The notes beneath the pieces are model-generated. The model did not search any database, was not told where the DNA came from, and saw nothing but the letters and a program-made list of their open reading frames with translations. 64,000 nucleotides of DNA from Candidatus Hydrogenedentota bacterium. GTDB lineage: Bacteria; Hydrogenedentota; Hydrogenedentia; Hydrogenedentales; JAGMZX01. Positions within the stretch are counted from its first letter, which is position 1, and each line of letters opens with the position of its first letter. Below are positions 42,823 to 51,739 of the stretch, piece after piece. The stretch lies in assembly GCA_029556545.1 (NCBI GenBank), contig JAKQEQ010000017.1:124001-188000 (forward strand), in the 5' to 3' direction. The position numbers were made by a program, and so were the translations under genes.

Positions 42823-43043
42823 CCTGTCGCATCTTCTTTATCCAGGTCTCCCTTCCGGCTGAGCCCACCCCCACCCTACAATCCGCGCCGCCGTCCGTGA
42901 CCCCATCCCCAGTATCTTACCCCCGCTGTTGGCCGCGCTCAAGCCACGGGGCAACCTCGGCATTTCTTGGCGATATCCGTCTTGCACCCGCTCGCGCGCC
43001 GGGGCGCTGGAAAAGAGGACCGCAGCCTCACTATATTCGGGTC

Positions 43044-44120
43044 ATGAACACGATAAGCCGAAGAGCGTTTCTTGCCGGGGTTGCTGGCGGGGCCGTCGGG
43101 GCGACAGTGGCCGGGGCGTCCTTAGACGCGTCCGAGGGGCCGTCGCACCGGCGATTGCCTCGATGGCGCGGTTTCAACCTGCTTGAAAAGTTCTGGGTTC
43201 CGGGCAACCGGCCATTTGTCGAGCGGGACTTCGCCTGGATGGCGGAATGGGGCTTCGATTTCGCGCGCCTGCCGCTGTCGTATCATTGCTGGGCGAAGCC
43301 GGACGACTGGTACACGCTGGACGAGGCGGAACTCAAGGAGATTGACGAGGCCGTCGCCTTCGGGCGCAAGCACGGCGTCCACGTGTGCCTGAACTTCCAC
43401 CGCGCGCCCGGCTACTGCGTGGGGGGCGAACCCGAGCCGGTGTCGCTGTGGGACAACGAGGAGGCGCAGCGGGCGTTCGCGTTCCACTGGGGCCATTTCG
43501 CGAAACGGTACCAGGGCATGCCCAATGCCGCCATCAGCTTCAACCTCGTGAACGAGCCCGCCACGGTGGGCATCCCCGTTTACGTGCGCGTGGTCGAGCG
43601 CGCCCTCGAAGCCATCCGCGAACACGACCCGGACCGCCTCGTGATCTGTGACGGCCTGTTCTGGGGCCGCGAGCCGGTCGAGGCGCTGGTCCCACTGGGC
43701 GTGGCGCAGAGCACGCGCGGCTATGACCCGATGCCGCTCACGCACTATCGCGCGTCGTGGGTCGAAGGGTCGGACCGGTGGCCGCTGCCCGCATGGCCCC
43801 TGCGCGAGAGCGACAAGGTGCTCTGGGACAAGGAGCGTCTGCGCGACAAGCGAGTCCGCCAGTGGCGCGCCTTGGCCGACGAGGGCGTGGGTGTGCACGT
43901 CGGCGAATGCGGCGCGTTCCGCCACACGCCCCACGGGGTCGTCTTGGCGTGGCTGCGGGATTGTCTCGAACTCTGGAAGGAAGCCGGCTTTGGCTGGGCG
44001 CTCTGGAACCTGCGCGGGACCTTCGGCATACTCGATTCCGAGCGCGACGACGTGGCCTATGAGGACTTCAACGGCCACAAGCTCGACCGGGCGATGCTCG
44101 AACTGCTCCAAAGCATGTAG
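43044..44120 (+). CDS. GH5-family glycoside hydrolase with Tat-type signal
   Basis: A 358-residue endoglucanase/mannanase-type hydrolase. The N-terminus (ISRRAFLAGVAGGAVG) is a twin-arginine export signal. The TIM-barrel has both GH5 glutamates: Glu171 in FNLVNEP as acid/base and Glu288 in HVGECGAF as nucleophile. It would cut beta-linked glycans in the periplasm or outside. ATG 43044 is preferred over the frame opening at 42897, which has no signal or family match. The next gene encodes a sulfatase, so a sulfated polysaccharide could be the shared target. Confidence 0.87.
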   Translation: MNTISRRAFLAGVAGGAVGATVAGASLDASEGPSHRRLPRWRGFNLLEKFWVPGNRPFVERDFAWMAEWGFDFARLPLSYHCWAKPDDWYTLDEAELKEIDEAVAFGRKHGVHVCLNFHRAPGYCVGGEPEPVSLWDNEEAQRAFAFHWGHFAKRYQGMPNAAISFNLVNEPATVGIPVYVRVVERALEAIREHDPDRLVICDGLFWGREPVEALVPLGVAQSTRGYDPMPLTHYRASWVEGSDRWPLPAWPLRESDKVLWDKERLRDKRVRQWRALADEGVGVHVGECGAFRHTPHGVVLAWLRDCLELWKEAGFGWALWNLRGTFGILDSERDDVAYEDFNGHKLDRAMLELLQSM

Positions 44121-45691: not shown

Positions 45692-47623
45692 CTACTTCGC
45701 GGCGGCGCGCGCTACGGCGATGCGTTCCTGGGCGGCCTTAAGGATCATGTTGAGCAGGTCGGCGTAACGCAGGCCGCGCAGGCCCGCCATGAGGTTGAAC
45801 TTGCCATCCCAGCACCAACCGGGATTCGGGTTCACCTCCAAGAGCTTGATCACGCCGTTGGCGTCCGTGCGGAAATCGAAGCGCGCGTAATCGCGGCAGC
45901 CGAGCCGCTCGTAGAGCACGTTCGCGTAATCGTAGAGTTGGCGGCGCGTGTCGGAATCGAGCGAGGCCTCCTTATAGAGCACGTCGCTCCAATAGGGCGA
46001 ATCGGGCAGCCACTTGGACTCGTACCCGAGGATGGCCGGCAGGTCGGGATCGAGTTTCGAGTAATCCACCTCGAGTGGCGGCAGGATCGAGTACGTCAAA
46101 CCGGGGTTTCCCACGATGCCGATAGTATACTCGGGTCCCGTAAGGAACTCCTGGATAAGAATCGCGCATTTGCCGTAGGTCGCGCGCATCCACTGGATAT
46201 ATTCGAGCAATTCCTCGGCGTTGTGCACGACGGCGTCTTGCGTGATACCCATGCTGCTGTCGCCGAAATTCGGCTTCAACAAGGCGGGCAGCGTCGCGGG
46301 CAGCGTCGCGAGCGAGTCGTCCGGGCCGATATACGATTCGAGCGGCGTCGGGATGTCGAGCGATTGCGCAATGGCGTTGACGAGTCCCTTGTTGTAGCAC
46401 AGGCCGAGGCACGCGGGTCCCGCGCCGGTATACGGGATGTCGAGCATCTCAAGAAGGGCCGGCACGTGCAGTTCCATGAAGGCGTCGTTCCGGAAGCCCT
46501 CGTCACAGAGGTTCAACACGAAATGCGGTGGGTTCGCGGCAAGGGCGCGCATCAGATTCTGGTGGTTGTCCAGATACGTGAACTCGTACTCCGGCAACTC
46601 GGCCAGCGCGGCCTTGAGCCGGTTGATTGTGTCGAAATCCTCCGCGTTGAACTTGCCGTCCACCTTCACCTGGTCCGGCAGTTCCGGGTCGCCCATGACG
46701 ACGGTTACCTTCGTGCGGCCGGCGCGGGCCAGCGTGGCCGGGACCACGCGCCGCGGCGCCTTGACTGTCAGAATGAAACGGTGCGCCATCATGCCGAGGT
46801 CCTGGCCGCGCGTCGAATTGGTCTCTAGGGGTTCGTGAAAGCGCACGGATTCGTAGCCGACCTTTTCCAGCAGGTCCTTGAGTTGATCTCGCGTGTACAG
46901 CCTTTCCGCGTAGAACTGGTCCGCGATGACGCCCTTCTCCGCGTGCGTGATGACCTCGCGCGTCACGATGCGGCGTCCGTCCTTGGACAGCGCCCGCTCG
47001 CGGCACACGAAGTGTTGCTCGTCGATCCATTCCCAGGTCCGCTGCTCGAAATTCCGACTCAGCCACTCCCCGTCCGCGAGGTCCACGAAAACGAGGCCGT
47101 GCGGCAGCAGCAATTGCGCAAGGTTCTTCAACACCAACTCATCGTCCGACTCCTGCTCGAAATAGCCGAATGAATTTCCCATCAGCAGAATTGCGTGAAA
47201 CTGCCGACCGCCCAGCCGCGACTTGCGCGCGTCGCCCTCGTGGAACGACACGCTCAACTGCTCCAGCTTCGCGCGGCGGCGCGCCTGCCGGATCAAATAC
47301 CGGGAACGATCGCAGCCGGTAACGTGACGGAAGCCGCGCCGCGCCAGTTCGAGCGAATGGCGGCCCTGTCCGCAGCACATATCGAGGATGTAATCGTTCG
47401 GCTGCAGCCCCAGCAGACGGACCACCATGTCCACTTCCTGCCGCGTGTTCTCCGGGTTCTCGACGACGTCGCCGTCCGTCTTCAGGTACAGAGAATTGAA
47501 GAGCGTGCGCCACCATTCGGACGGCAGATGGCGTTCGAGGTCGGAGATCGGCCCGAGCGTCCGAACGTTGGCGGACCCGTTCCGCTGTGGCCCTTTTCGA
47601 TCAATCATCTCGCGCGTTTTCAC
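45692..47623 (-). CDS. SAM methyltransferase fused to a D-Ala-D-Ala ligase-like ATP-grasp enzyme
   Basis: A 643-residue two-domain protein. Residues about 40-285 are a class I methyltransferase with the SAM loop ILDMCCGQGRHSLEL (79-93). Residues about 303-640 are an ATP-grasp ligase of the D-Ala-D-Ala ligase type, with VTVVMGDPE at its start, KPNFGDSSMGI as the ATP loop and EVNPNPG (about 595-601) as the metal site. The second part should join a carboxylate to an amine using ATP. The two activities may act in turn on one small molecule or peptide. GTG 47623 with GGAGA upstream is preferred over the longer frame, which adds 106 low-complexity residues. It faces the aminotransferase operon across a 299-base gap. 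Confidence 0.82.
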   Translation of the reverse strand: MKTREMIDRKGPQRNGSANVRTLGPISDLERHLPSEWWRTLFNSLYLKTDGDVVENPENTRQEVDMVVRLLGLQPNDYILDMCCGQGRHSLELARRGFRHVTGCDRSRYLIRQARRRAKLEQLSVSFHEGDARKSRLGGRQFHAILLMGNSFGYFEQESDDELVLKNLAQLLLPHGLVFVDLADGEWLSRNFEQRTWEWIDEQHFVCRERALSKDGRRIVTREVITHAEKGVIADQFYAERLYTRDQLKDLLEKVGYESVRFHEPLETNSTRGQDLGMMAHRFILTVKAPRRVVPATLARAGRTKVTVVMGDPELPDQVKVDGKFNAEDFDTINRLKAALAELPEYEFTYLDNHQNLMRALAANPPHFVLNLCDEGFRNDAFMELHVPALLEMLDIPYTGAGPACLGLCYNKGLVNAIAQSLDIPTPLESYIGPDDSLATLPATLPALLKPNFGDSSMGITQDAVVHNAEELLEYIQWMRATYGKCAILIQEFLTGPEYTIGIVGNPGLTYSILPPLEVDYSKLDPDLPAILGYESKWLPDSPYWSDVLYKEASLDSDTRRQLYDYANVLYERLGCRDYARFDFRTDANGVIKLLEVNPNPGWCWDGKFNLMAGLRGLRYADLLNMILKAAQERIAVARAAAK

Positions 47624-47922
47624 CTTTTCTTCTCCCACGGCGCCGCCCCGGCGTGGCACGGGCGTCTCGCCCATGAGTCGATCCGACTTCGGCGGGCATG
47701 GGCGGGATGCCCATGGCGCTGTAAGGGGGGGCGGCGACTCAAAAAAACGCACACTTATAATACTAATCCCGGGAAAAACACAAGAGAAAAATTTTCCGCC
47801 CGAAAAAACCCGAAAACCGGGGTCGGTCCGGCTGGGCAGCGCCGCCGCGCGGGGAAGTCCGGGGCGCATTGCGCGGCGGCGTGGCGCCGTGAAAGAATCG
47901 GGCCGACAACCGAGGAGGCGTG
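47624..47922. other. shared divergent promoter region
   Basis: No gene is evident. A perfect TATAAT lies at 47756-47761 in an A/T-rich island, with only a poor -35 match on either strand. A-rich runs interleaved with CCCGAAAA words cover 47770-47820. Control of both the fusion gene and the aminotransferase operon could sit here. Confidence 0.45.
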
Positions 47923-49338
47923 ATGCACACGACGGAGACAACCAACAACGCGCCCCGCATGACCCGCGCCGAGAAGGCGGCCGTAGTGGCGCGCTTTTCG
48001 CGCTACATCAATCGCGGCCAGGTGAAATACCTGCGATCCGGCCATCTGGACGTCATCGAGACGGAGCGCGGAGGCGTCGGGTTCCGCGATCCGGCCTCGG
48101 GCCGGCGCATGTACGATTGCTTCAGTTCGGCGGGAAGCTTTAACGTGTCGCGGCGCAACCCGCTTATCATGCAGGCGTTGGAGGCGGCGCTGGACGACCT
48201 CGACATGGGCACGTTCCATTTCGCGTCGCCGGCGAAGGCGGCGCTGGCGGCGAAGTTGGCCGCGCTTGCGCCGGGGGACCTGGACGGCGTGTTGTTCGCC
48301 GCGGGCGGCGGGGACGCGGTGGATTGCGCGCTGAAGCTCGCGCGGGGCGCGACGGGGCGAAGCGAGATCATCGCGACCGTGAAGGCCTATCACGGGCACA
48401 CGGGTTTCGCGCTGTCCGCGAACGGCAAGGCGCATTACCGGCGTTTCTTCGAGCCGTTGATGCCGGATTTCTCGTTTGTGCCGTTCAACGACATCGAGGC
48501 GATGCGCGCGCGGATTTCCGAGAAGACCGCCGCCGTGATCCTCGAACCGGTGCAGGGCGAGGCAGGCATCTTCCCGGCGGACGCGGCGTACCTGGAAGGG
48601 CTGCGCGCGCTGTGCGATGAGCGCGGCGCGCTTCTCATCTTCGACGAAATCCAGACCGGCTTCGGACGCACAGGGCGCCTGTTCGCCGCCGATCACTACG
48701 GGGTGGTCCCCGACATCATGACCCTTGCGAAATCGCTGGGCGGAGGACTCTATCCCATTGCCGCAGTGCTGTATCGGCCCACGCCCGCCGTGACCGGCTT
48801 CCTCGATCGCCATCCCGTGTTCCACGAGACCCACGGCGGCGGGGCGGACCTCGGTTGCCGCGTCGGGCTGCGCGTCCTCGAATACATCGAGGAAACGCGG
48901 CTCTGGGAAAACGCCGCCGCGCGCGGCGCGCGCCTGAAGGAGGCGCTTGAGACGCTGCAGCATGAAAATCCGCGCATCATTCGCGCCGTGCGTGGCCTCG
49001 GACTCATGGTCGGCATCGAATACGTCCACGAGTTCGTGGGGCCTATGATGTCCGACGCCCTGGCGCGGCACGGCGTCTTCGCGGCGTACTCGGGCAACGC
49101 GCCGCAAGTGATGCGGTTTATGGTCCCGTTGACGGTGAATGCCGAGGAGATCGAGGGAATCATAGTCGCAATTCGGCTCGCCGTCCGCGATATGAAGACC
49201 CTGCTGCCCGCGGCCTTGCTAGCCGCGAGGGTTCCGGGCGTCCTGCGGCTGCTCAACAACGAACGGGTGCAGACGGCCGCGTTCGGCTTTCTGCGGAAAA
49301 TCGAGGAACTCCTGCCCGCCCGGAGGAAGAACGCATGA
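47923..49338 (+). CDS. class-III (PLP) aminotransferase
   Basis: A 471-residue fold-type I aminotransferase with all PLP features. Lys270 in MTLAKSLGGG forms the Schiff base, Asp241 in IFDEIQTGFGRTG contacts the pyridine nitrogen, and AYHGHTGF near 156 stacks on the ring. It carries about 55 extra C-terminal residues beyond the usual core. The family moves amino groups between omega-amino donors and oxo acids; the substrate is open. ATG 47923 follows GAGGAGG. The stop overlaps the next gene's ATG (ATGA), and that gene encodes a diverged homologue, which suggests a paired complex. Confidence 0.88.
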   Translation: MHTTETTNNAPRMTRAEKAAVVARFSRYINRGQVKYLRSGHLDVIETERGGVGFRDPASGRRMYDCFSSAGSFNVSRRNPLIMQALEAALDDLDMGTFHFASPAKAALAAKLAALAPGDLDGVLFAAGGGDAVDCALKLARGATGRSEIIATVKAYHGHTGFALSANGKAHYRRFFEPLMPDFSFVPFNDIEAMRARISEKTAAVILEPVQGEAGIFPADAAYLEGLRALCDERGALLIFDEIQTGFGRTGRLFAADHYGVVPDIMTLAKSLGGGLYPIAAVLYRPTPAVTGFLDRHPVFHETHGGGADLGCRVGLRVLEYIEETRLWENAAARGARLKEALETLQHENPRIIRAVRGLGLMVGIEYVHEFVGPMMSDALARHGVFAAYSGNAPQVMRFMVPLTVNAEEIEGIIVAIRLAVRDMKTLLPAALLAARVPGVLRLLNNERVQTAAFGFLRKIEELLPARRKNA

Positions 49339-50543
49339 GCGCAAGCACTTCGCCGTTGCAGGCGTCTCCCGGTCTCCCGCAAGGCCGGCTGGAGCGGCTG
49401 CGCGCCCTCGGCCACGATTTCCTCGAGGGGCGTCGCGAAGGGGCATACCTCTGGGATATGCAAGGCCACCGCTACCTCGACGCCGTCTCTGGCGCGGGCA
49501 CGCACAACCTCGGGCGGCGCCCGGAGGCACCGGTGGCGGCGCTGCGCAACGCCCTTCGCGATACGGACCAGGGCAACTTCCCGATGGTCTCGATTGAGAA
49601 GGCGCGGCTTGCCGAGACCCTGGCGGGCTTCGTGCCGGGTCCTCTGGAATGCGCCGTCTTCAGCGTTATGCGCGGCGAGGCAATGGACTGCGCGTGCAAG
49701 GTGGCGCGGGGGCGCACGGGCCGCGCGGAATTGGTGACGGTCGACGGCGGCTGGTACGGACAGACGGGGTTCGCACTGACGCTGTCCGAGCGGGCGGACA
49801 AGACGTGCTTCGGGCCGCTCATTCCCGAGGTCCGCATCGTCCCCTTCGACGATATAAGCGCCGCGGAGCAGGCCGTCACGGCGCGGACCGCCGCCTTTAT
49901 CCTCGAACCCCTGCAAGCCGAAAACAACTGCCGCGCGGCGATGCCCGAGTACGCGGGAGCCGTCGCGCAATTGTGCCGCGATCGCGGCGCATTGCTCGTG
50001 GTCGACGAAACGCAGACGAATTTCGGGCGTACGGGGCACCGCTTCGCTTTCGAGGCGCTGGGCATGTCGCCCGATATTCTCGTCCTCGGCGAGGCGCTGG
50101 GCGCGGGCGTGTTTCCCATCGCGGCGACCCTGCTGACCCAGGACGTGAACCGCTTTCTGAACGCCCATCCGCTGATTCATCTCTCGACTTTCGGCGGGTC
50201 GGACATCGGCTGCCGCGTCGCCCTGAGCGCCGTCGAAACCTACGCACGTCTCGAACCGTGGCGCAACGCCTCGATGGTCGGCGCGCGCCTGCTGGCCGAC
50301 CTGCGCGAGACCGCCGAGCGCCCCGGTTCGCCCATACGCGGCGTGGCGGGCGCCGGGTTGCTGCTGTCGCTGGACTGCGGCACAGAGGAAGCGGCTGCCG
50401 CGCTGTGCCGTCGCGCCGCCGATCAGGGTTTGCTCGTGCTGCCCGGCGCAGTGGCGCGGCACACGGTCGTGCTGCGGCCCAGTCTGCTGATCACCGAAGA
50501 CGAGGCGGACGCCATCGTCACCGCGGTCCGGGCGTGTCTATGA
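49335..50543 (+). CDS. aminotransferase homologue lacking the PLP lysine
   Basis: A 402-residue protein with the class-III aminotransferase fold and clear kinship to the preceding protein (DETQTNFGRTG, TFGGSDIGCRVAL). At the Schiff-base position it reads ILVLGEALGAG, so residue 253 is Glu, coded GAG at 50091-50093, not Lys. The aromatic stacking motif is also altered (GWYGQTGF instead of AYHGHTGF), and GGGD has become MRGE. It is unlikely to catalyse transamination alone. It may be a regulatory or structural partner for the upstream enzyme, or use the fold for another reaction. It is coupled on both sides by ATGA overlaps. Confidence 0.86.
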   Translation: MSASTSPLQASPGLPQGRLERLRALGHDFLEGRREGAYLWDMQGHRYLDAVSGAGTHNLGRRPEAPVAALRNALRDTDQGNFPMVSIEKARLAETLAGFVPGPLECAVFSVMRGEAMDCACKVARGRTGRAELVTVDGGWYGQTGFALTLSERADKTCFGPLIPEVRIVPFDDISAAEQAVTARTAAFILEPLQAENNCRAAMPEYAGAVAQLCRDRGALLVVDETQTNFGRTGHRFAFEALGMSPDILVLGEALGAGVFPIAATLLTQDVNRFLNAHPLIHLSTFGGSDIGCRVALSAVETYARLEPWRNASMVGARLLADLRETAERPGSPIRGVAGAGLLLSLDCGTEEAAAALCRRAADQGLLVLPGAVARHTVVLRPSLLITEDEADAIVTAVRACL

Positions 50544-51739
50544 AAGCCCTGTTCTTCGAGAACCGCCTCGACAAAGTCATCGCCCTCAAGGTGGCCGAAC
50601 GTGTCTCCCGATATGCGGCGTTCGGGCCGTTCTCGCCGCTGCGCTACGCCGAGGTGCCCGAGCCGCGCCTCCCGAATCCACGCTGGATCAAGGTCCGCAA
50701 CATCCAATGCGGCCTGTGCGGCACGGACCTGCACTTCATGTTCATGGACCTGCATCCGAAGTCGTTTTCCGCGGCAATCCCCGGCATACGCAGAAAGTTT
50801 CTCGGCCATGAACTGGTGGGCGAAGTCATCGAGGTCGGCGACGAAGCGGGAGGATTTCGCGAGGGTGAACGCGTCGTCATGCGCATCGACTGGCCGTCCT
50901 GCTTCCAGTTGGAGATGGACCCGCCGTGTCCGCAATGCGCACGCGGCGATTACATGCTTTGCGAGAACGTGGGCGCGAAGGAACTGCCGATCACGGATGT
51001 CGGCGGCGGCTTCTCCCCGTTCATGGTCATGCATCGGACCCAGCCATTCCGTGTTCCCGACGCGCTGAGCGACGATGCCGCCGTCCTGATCGAACCGTTG
51101 GCGAGCGCGGCGCACGGCGTCCTGAAGGCTCCCCCGCATGGCCCCGAGCGCGTCCTGGTAATCGGCGGCGGCACGATCGGATTACTGACGATCGCCGCGA
51201 TCCGCCATATCGCGTCCGAGGCCGCGGTGTACTGTCTCGCGCGCTACCCGTTCCAGGCGCGCGTCGCCGAGAAATACGGCGCCGTCGTCATCCATGAAGG
51301 ACCGGACCTGTATGGACGCATCGCGGGGGTTGTGGACGCGCGGCACGTGCGCGGCCGTCTCGGCAACGAAATCCTGCTGGGCGGCTTCGACCGGGTGTAC
51401 GACACCATCGGCAACGACGCCACCTTCCATAACGCCCTTCGTTGGGCGCGCGGCGGCGGCACGGTGGTGCTGGTCGGGATCAACTTCAGCCCCGGACGCA
51501 TTGACTATTCGCCTATCTGGGCCCGCGAGGTGCATGTGGTCGGCATCAACTGCCACGCCACCGAAACCGATGGCCGCACCTCGTTCGACGTCGCCGCCGA
51601 CCTCTTGCTTGCCCAGACGCTGGACCCCGCCGACATCATCACCCATCGTTTCCCGGTCGCCCGGTATAAGGACGCCGTGAAAGCCTTCGTGCACAAAGGA
51701 CGCGCCGGCGCAATCAAGATCGTGCTGCAACAGCCATAG
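50540..51739 (+). CDS. zinc-dependent medium-chain dehydrogenase
   Basis: A 399-residue MDR alcohol dehydrogenase of the threonine/sorbitol dehydrogenase kind. The catalytic zinc site is in CGLCGTD (near 55) and GHELVGEV (near 91). Structural-zinc cysteines cluster in CPQCARGDYMLC near 132. The NAD(P) fold starts at VLVIGGGTIGLL near 200. ATG 50540 overlaps the stop of the aminotransferase-like gene. The start is long for the family (about 30 residues before the first strand match). It would oxidise a secondary alcohol to a ketone or the reverse, and the ketone could be the substrate of the aminotransferase. Confidence 0.87.
   Translation: MKALFFENRLDKVIALKVAERVSRYAAFGPFSPLRYAEVPEPRLPNPRWIKVRNIQCGLCGTDLHFMFMDLHPKSFSAAIPGIRRKFLGHELVGEVIEVGDEAGGFREGERVVMRIDWPSCFQLEMDPPCPQCARGDYMLCENVGAKELPITDVGGGFSPFMVMHRTQPFRVPDALSDDAAVLIEPLASAAHGVLKAPPHGPERVLVIGGGTIGLLTIAAIRHIASEAAVYCLARYPFQARVAEKYGAVVIHEGPDLYGRIAGVVDARHVRGRLGNEILLGGFDRVYDTIGNDATFHNALRWARGGGTVVLVGINFSPGRIDYSPIWAREVHVVGINCHATETDGRTSFDVAADLLLAQTLDPADIITHRFPVARYKDAVKAFVHKGRAGAIKIVLQQP

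Follow-up and report, generated by a model that had tools for sequence, protein, structure and literature searches.

A probable heterodimeric class III aminotransferase pair of Hydrogenedentota, Desulfobacterota and Spirochaetota with active-site residues divided between two paralogues

The window analysed here is a stretch of 64,000 nucleotides, positions 124001-188000 of a contig within a 6.1 Mb genome of a Candidatus Hydrogenedentota bacterium. Three plus-strand genes in this window are chained by two ATGA overlaps and encode AT1, AT2 and a zinc-dependent medium-chain (MDR) alcohol dehydrogenase. The features of the locus, in window coordinates, are as follows.

47912-47918 (+): GAGGAGG, likely ribosome-binding site of AT1, from the sequence
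47923-49338 (+): AT1, putative catalytic subunit, class III aminotransferase of 471 aa (open reading frame; PF00202, 296 bits)
48730-48732 (+): AAA, Schiff-base Lys270 of AT1, which aligns with Lys300 of YgjG
48832-48834 (+): CAC, His304 of AT1 at the inter-subunit Thr position (YgjG Thr332*), from the alignment
49183-49335 (+): AT1-specific C-terminal tail, residues 421-471, predicted helical (length comparison and a low-confidence AF2 model)
49322-49326 (+): GGAGG, likely ribosome-binding site of AT2, inside AT1, from the sequence
49335-50543 (+): AT2, lysine-less class III aminotransferase homologue of 402 aa (open reading frame; PF00202, 217 bits)
49671-49673 (+): CGC, Arg113 of AT2, replacing the phosphate-loop Gly150 of YgjG (Arg in 39/39 AT2s)
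50091-50093 (+): GAG, Glu253 of AT2, replacing the PLP lysine (Glu in 39/39 AT2s)
50187-50189 (+): ACT, Thr285 of AT2 (TFGG motif), the inter-subunit phosphate-binding Thr, kept (Thr in 39/39 AT2s)
50540-51739 (+): zinc-dependent MDR alcohol dehydrogenase of 399 aa, third gene of the operon (PF08240, PF00107)

The AT1 stop and the AT2 start share ATGA at 49335-49338, an overlap already described in the first-pass annotation of this DNA; that the dehydrogenase start overlaps the AT2 stop in the same way was not described there. The nearest NCBIfam model to the dehydrogenase was L-threonine 3-dehydrogenase, with a score far under the cut-off. Both AT1 (296 bits) and AT2 (217 bits) scored over the curated Pfam cut-off for PF00202 (Aminotran_3, 30.5 bits) and the two proteins were 38% identical across 390 residues (E 2e-79), bearing out their earlier assignment to class III. 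The reported lysine in AT1 (Lys270) and glutamate in AT2 (Glu253, GAG at 50091-50093) were confirmed in both the sequence and the alignment, and the ring-stacking motif was changed as described, reading GWYG in AT2 vs AYHG in AT1.

Further upstream the minus strand encodes a 674-residue protein (45692-47716) in which a methyltransferase domain is fused to a D-Ala-D-Ala-ligase-like ATP-grasp domain, and the plus strand encodes a GH5-family glycosidase (42897-44120). The Tat-like signal peptide of the glycosidase begins at an internal ATG (MNTISRRAFLAGVAGG), suggesting that the first start codon is probably too early. Synteny of these two genes and of an upstream sulfatase gene was kept only with a same-genus genome, and they were set aside as unrelated when function was considered.

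Escherichia coli YgjG, a putrescine aminotransferase, is a homodimer in which each active site is built from both subunits: Lys300 forms the Schiff base, Asp271 serves the ring nitrogen, Phe180 stacks on the ring, the PLP phosphate is bound by Gly150, Thr151 and the neighbouring subunit's Thr332*, the keto-acid switch consists of Glu243 and Arg426, and the entrance is shaped by the other subunit's Phe327* (PMC4244111). We counted residues at these positions, using YgjG numbering, in a joint alignment of 38 AT1, 39 AT2 and 13 background class III proteins. AT1 carried Gly150, Tyr180, Glu243, Asp271, Gln274, Lys300 and Arg426 of its own subunit in all 38 sequences and met the criterion of a Schiff-base lysine (38/38). 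The Thr332 position was never threonine in AT1 (H13 Y8 I5 L4 S4 F3 W1), and the inter-subunit Thr (Ser) that is a membership feature of class III was not met (0/38 Thr, 4 Ser). This loss, the retention of the threonine as Thr285 in AT2, and Arg113 of AT2 had not been picked up in the first-pass annotation.

AT2 showed the reciprocal pattern. The Lys300 position was glutamate in 39/39 sequences and the Schiff-base lysine criterion was not met, by which AT2 is a class III homologue and is predicted not to be a transaminase alone. Arginine occupied the Gly150 position in all 39 AT2s, vs glycine in all 38 AT1s and all 13 background proteins, the Arg426 position held Val, Leu, Ile or Met (39/39), and the stacking position was free (W/C/Y/L/S). 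Thr332 was kept in every AT2 (39/39), and the Phe327 position was Leu or Met in 39/39 AT2s and variable, half acidic, in AT1. At its own site AT2 retained Asp271 (39/39), Glu243 (39/39) and Gln274 (37/39), indicating that its pocket has not simply decayed. The background set, ordinary class III proteins encoded in the same genomes (n=13), had the lysine in 13/13 and the threonine in 12/13, with one Ser, and some two dozen further relatives (36-53% identical to AT1) all had the lysine, with Thr or Ser wherever the loop was covered. An unguided column scan likewise found that the Thr332 loop is fixed only in AT2, with AT1 free to vary there, and that the reverse holds for the Phe180 and Arg426 positions.

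The reciprocal distribution of the threonine is evidence for a putative shared active site, independent of the data on which the first-pass annotation relied. As Thr332 is present in 39/39 AT2s and lost in AT1, the pair would jointly supply one complete site, and the reciprocal residues suggest that AT1 kept what its own chain needs whereas AT2 kept what is supplied to a neighbour. On these residues an AT1 homodimer would be without the trans threonine and an AT2 homodimer without the lysine; only AT1-AT2 is predicted to give a complete site, and no more than one. The pattern speaks against two equal sites in a homodimer.

Screening 84,980 species genomes for AT2 gave eight true matches (47-59% identity), from Hydrogenedentes, Spirochaetes, Desulfosudis, Desulfatibacillaceae and one bin called Proteobacteria. 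Whole-genome searches detected AT2 in 9/68 genomes of Hydrogenedentota, 13/395 of Desulfobacterota (the phylum of the Desulfosudis genome, G069) and 14/296 of Spirochaetota (the phylum of G068), the last with 15 copies, and in none of 200 genomes from the phylum of a Paenibacillus, which is no more than a bare negative. A 14th match in the phylum of G069, from genome G103, was a single-gene relative and was left out of the count. A search of the same three phyla for AT1 returned, at its top tier, exactly the same 9, 13 and 14 genomes. AT1 and AT2 were held by the same 36/759 genomes, and neither a top-tier AT1 without AT2 nor an AT2 without AT1 was found among the 759 genomes of these phyla. 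In 38/38 pairs AT2 was the next gene after AT1 and had the same orientation, with a spacing ranging from -4 (the ATGA overlap) to short gaps; G004 was outside this count, having its AT1 and AT2 at contig ends. No natural AT1-AT2 fusion was seen, the two being separate open reading frames in all 38 pairs.

These counts answer a check proposed in the first-pass annotation, that the same lysine loss should always sit beside an intact copy: adjacency on one strand held for 38/38 pairs, with Glu in 39/39 AT2s and Lys in 38/38 AT1s. Two observations that would have refuted that proposal did not materialize, since no AT2 homologue kept the lysine and a sequencing error at 50091-50093 is at odds with Glu in 38 further AT2 orthologues. 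One orthologue, from another genome of the same genus and 74% identical, also had glutamate, and with Glu in all 39 AT2s we conclude that Glu253 can be put down neither to chance nor to a base-calling error.

The AT1 clade and the AT2 clade were reciprocally monophyletic, each with an SH-aLRT of 100, and L078 and L063-type homodimers branched beside them. This tree fits an inferred single duplication that would have preceded spread across the three phyla. With AT1 and AT2 forming one clade each, the residue pattern represents one long-maintained evolutionary event and not 38 independent ones. Path lengths within the two clades were correlated (r 0.82, 0/5000 shuffles), although these parallel distances owe something to shared organismal history, and AT2 paths were 1.6-fold longer than AT1 paths. 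In seven close pairs dN/dS was 0.12-0.24 for AT2 and 0.05-0.16 for AT1. AT2 is under purifying selection and is therefore a maintained protein; a sequencing error or pseudogene was ruled out by this dN/dS range and by Glu in 39/39 AT2s. One genome, G507, carried two separate AT1-AT2 pairs (L085, L086), which fell in different branches of both the AT1 and AT2 trees.

Structure models were made with AF2 for single chains only, from alignments of 7-9 sequences, and served solely as evidence that the fold is retained in AT2. Confidence was moderate for AT2 (pLDDT 71) and low for AT1 (pLDDT 61), and the AT2 model matched YgjG (4uox) with a TM of 0.79. YgjG was the nearest solved structure by AT1 sequence matches and by AT2 fold matches, while Thermus ArgD/LysJ (1vef) topped the AT2 sequence matches; both have the fold and own-site residues seen in AT1. 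From residue 420 the chain ran on for 43-58 aa in 38/38 AT1s vs 7-11 aa in single-gene relatives, and for less than 10 aa in 38/39 AT2s, with 28 in one. L078 lacks this AT1 tail, which is about 50 residues long and includes conserved positions; the low-confidence AF2 model has helices at 407-435 and 447-463.

From the established gene pairing, residue pattern, phylogeny and selection we consider it highly likely that AT1 and AT2 form an obligate heterodimer of class III, fold-type I, with a single working active site; the heterodimer, the single PLP and the substrate class are inferred. AT1 would provide the lysine for the Schiff base, the aspartate at the pyridine nitrogen, the stacking tyrosine, the phosphate loop and the Glu/Arg switch for the keto acid; from across the dimer interface AT2 would add the threonine that holds the phosphate of PLP, as well as some of the entrance to the cleft. 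The site on the AT2 side would be dead, with Glu for the lysine, Arg in the phosphate loop and no trans threonine supplied by AT1; the Arg and Glu of AT2 may form a pair that occupies the vacant pocket. In this scenario the pair arose once, when an ordinary L078-like homodimeric enzyme was duplicated and reciprocal loss followed, and its two genes would since have been passed on together, by descent or by transfer. The fold-type I heterodimer with one dead subunit suggested in the first-pass annotation is supported by the pairing and the residue pattern, while physical association of the two proteins and their 1:1 stoichiometry are still inferences.

Three other readings were weighed. AT1 could be a self-sufficient homodimer, and AT2 a homodimer of its own that regulates or senses a ligand and has only the operon in common with AT1. 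Every own-subunit catalytic residue examined is present in AT1, and retention of Asp271, Glu243 and Gln274 in AT2 means that ligand binding may occur there. This arrangement leaves unexplained that the trans threonine was lost in 38/38 AT1s yet kept in 39/39 AT2s, which have no use of their own for it, and that neither top-tier protein was found without the other in the genomes searched. We regard it as improbable. An AT1 homodimer is not excluded, however, as Ser at the threonine position (4/38) or His or Tyr (21/38) could contact the phosphate.

Slightly less probable still is that AT2 catalyses a reaction itself with no lysine, for instance by using PMP like the ColD/E1 sugar dehydratases, which have His in place of Lys, with Glu253 as acid/base. 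The fixed glutamate (39/39) is not what random decay would leave, and AT2 retains the pyridine-N aspartate; but the phosphate-loop Gly is Arg in 39/39 AT2s, the trans threonine is lost on the AT1 side, the stacking residue varies (W/C/Y/L/S) and the keto-acid Arg is gone. A decaying, functionless duplicate would account for the lost catalytic lysine and for AT2 paths 1.6-fold longer than those of AT1. This last reading has almost nothing left to stand on given full-length reading frames with dN/dS of 0.12-0.24, Glu, Arg and Thr invariant over three phyla, and a constant pairing with AT1.

The preferred obligate heterodimer has partial parallels among known systems. In fold-type I PLP enzymes the homodimer is the usual state, and the active site is as a rule a composite one at its interface. 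Compared with YgjG, AT1 and AT2 would divide the residues of one site between two paralogues, with the second site destroyed. Serine palmitoyltransferase is the best-known heterodimer with a dead subunit and is eukaryotic and membrane-bound. Its SPT1 subunit lacks the PLP lysine, the site lies at the SPT1/SPT2 interface and a single active site is presumed (PMC6148460). AT1-AT2 resembles this LCB1(SPT1)/LCB2(SPT2) pair in being fold-type I paralogues of which one is without the PLP lysine, a likeness of logic and not of membership. LCB1/LCB2 is an acyltransferase of the AOS family whose heterodimer is eukaryotic and located in the ER, whereas Pfam and NCBIfam assign AT1 and AT2 to class III aminotransferases and membership of the AOS family is not met. 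The AT1-AT2 pair belongs to another fold-type I branch and its origin is independent of LCB1/LCB2. The glycine decarboxylase P-protein GcvPA/GcvPB is a bacterial fold-type I pair with PLP in one subunit only, but is a decarboxylase of another family and not class III.

In agreement with the first-pass annotation, which knew of no well-described bacterial case, no report of a heterodimeric class III aminotransferase was found in the open-access literature, a search that did not cover most subscription journals. AT1-AT2 is probably the first class III aminotransferase family made up of heterodimers, and is present in the bacterial phyla Hydrogenedentota, Desulfobacterota and Spirochaetota, with a split composite site, one PLP per dimer, an asymmetric cleft and an unknown, probably non-carboxylate amine substrate. 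It bears on how and why composite-site homodimers become heterodimers with one dead subunit. Annotation pipelines would label AT2 an ordinary aminotransferase, and it can be recognized by Glu at the lysine position, an RGE phosphate loop and a kept TFGG. For engineers the pair offers an asymmetric transaminase scaffold.

The closest homodimer-type proteins found were the L078-type single-gene relatives (G103, G304, G085 and others), about 45-53% identical to AT1. Unlike AT1 and AT2 these keep both the lysine and the trans threonine, and no lysine-less partner was found for them. As such relatives, about 50% identical, are still extant, the split should be retraceable by swapping a few residues. 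Four genomes, G123 (L147/L160), G085 (L148/L161), G159 (L152) and G130 (L149), had two neighbouring L078-related class III genes, one member reading STFGG and the other NSFGG. These were rejected as further split pairs because both members keep the lysine, with Thr or Ser where covered; they may illustrate a stage at which a pair has arisen but nothing has yet been lost.

Gene neighbours and residues gave some indication of function. The substrate-carboxylate Arg of AcOAT, OAT and GABA-AT corresponds to Lys183 in YgjG (PMC4244111). This Arg is replaced in AT1 by His159 (38/38), favouring an amine without a distal carboxylate. A TetR-type regulator recurred at 20 AT1-AT2 loci and an alanine dehydrogenase lay at most two genes away from AT1 in 13 loci, about a third of pairs, with TIGR00518 scores well above cut-off in the two tested. 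The alanine dehydrogenase suggests alanine/pyruvate as the amino donor/acceptor couple of an amine transaminase, although the substrate is inferred. The probable chemistry would be transfer between a non-carboxylate amine and pyruvate/alanine, with the aldehyde partner being produced or removed, in Hydrogenedentota, by the coupled dehydrogenase. Regulated amine-aldehyde interconversion is the role we find most likely, at roughly even chances and also as an inference, and we have less confidence in its direction. Two kinds of amidohydrolase were also found near the pair, at 8 and 5 loci, and an NCBIfam search of them assigned no family. The window's type of dehydrogenase was downstream of the pair in 11 loci, those of Hydrogenedentota and two outside that phylum, L067 (G230) and L079 (G608), where the order AT1-AT2-alcohol dehydrogenase suggests transfer of the whole operon.
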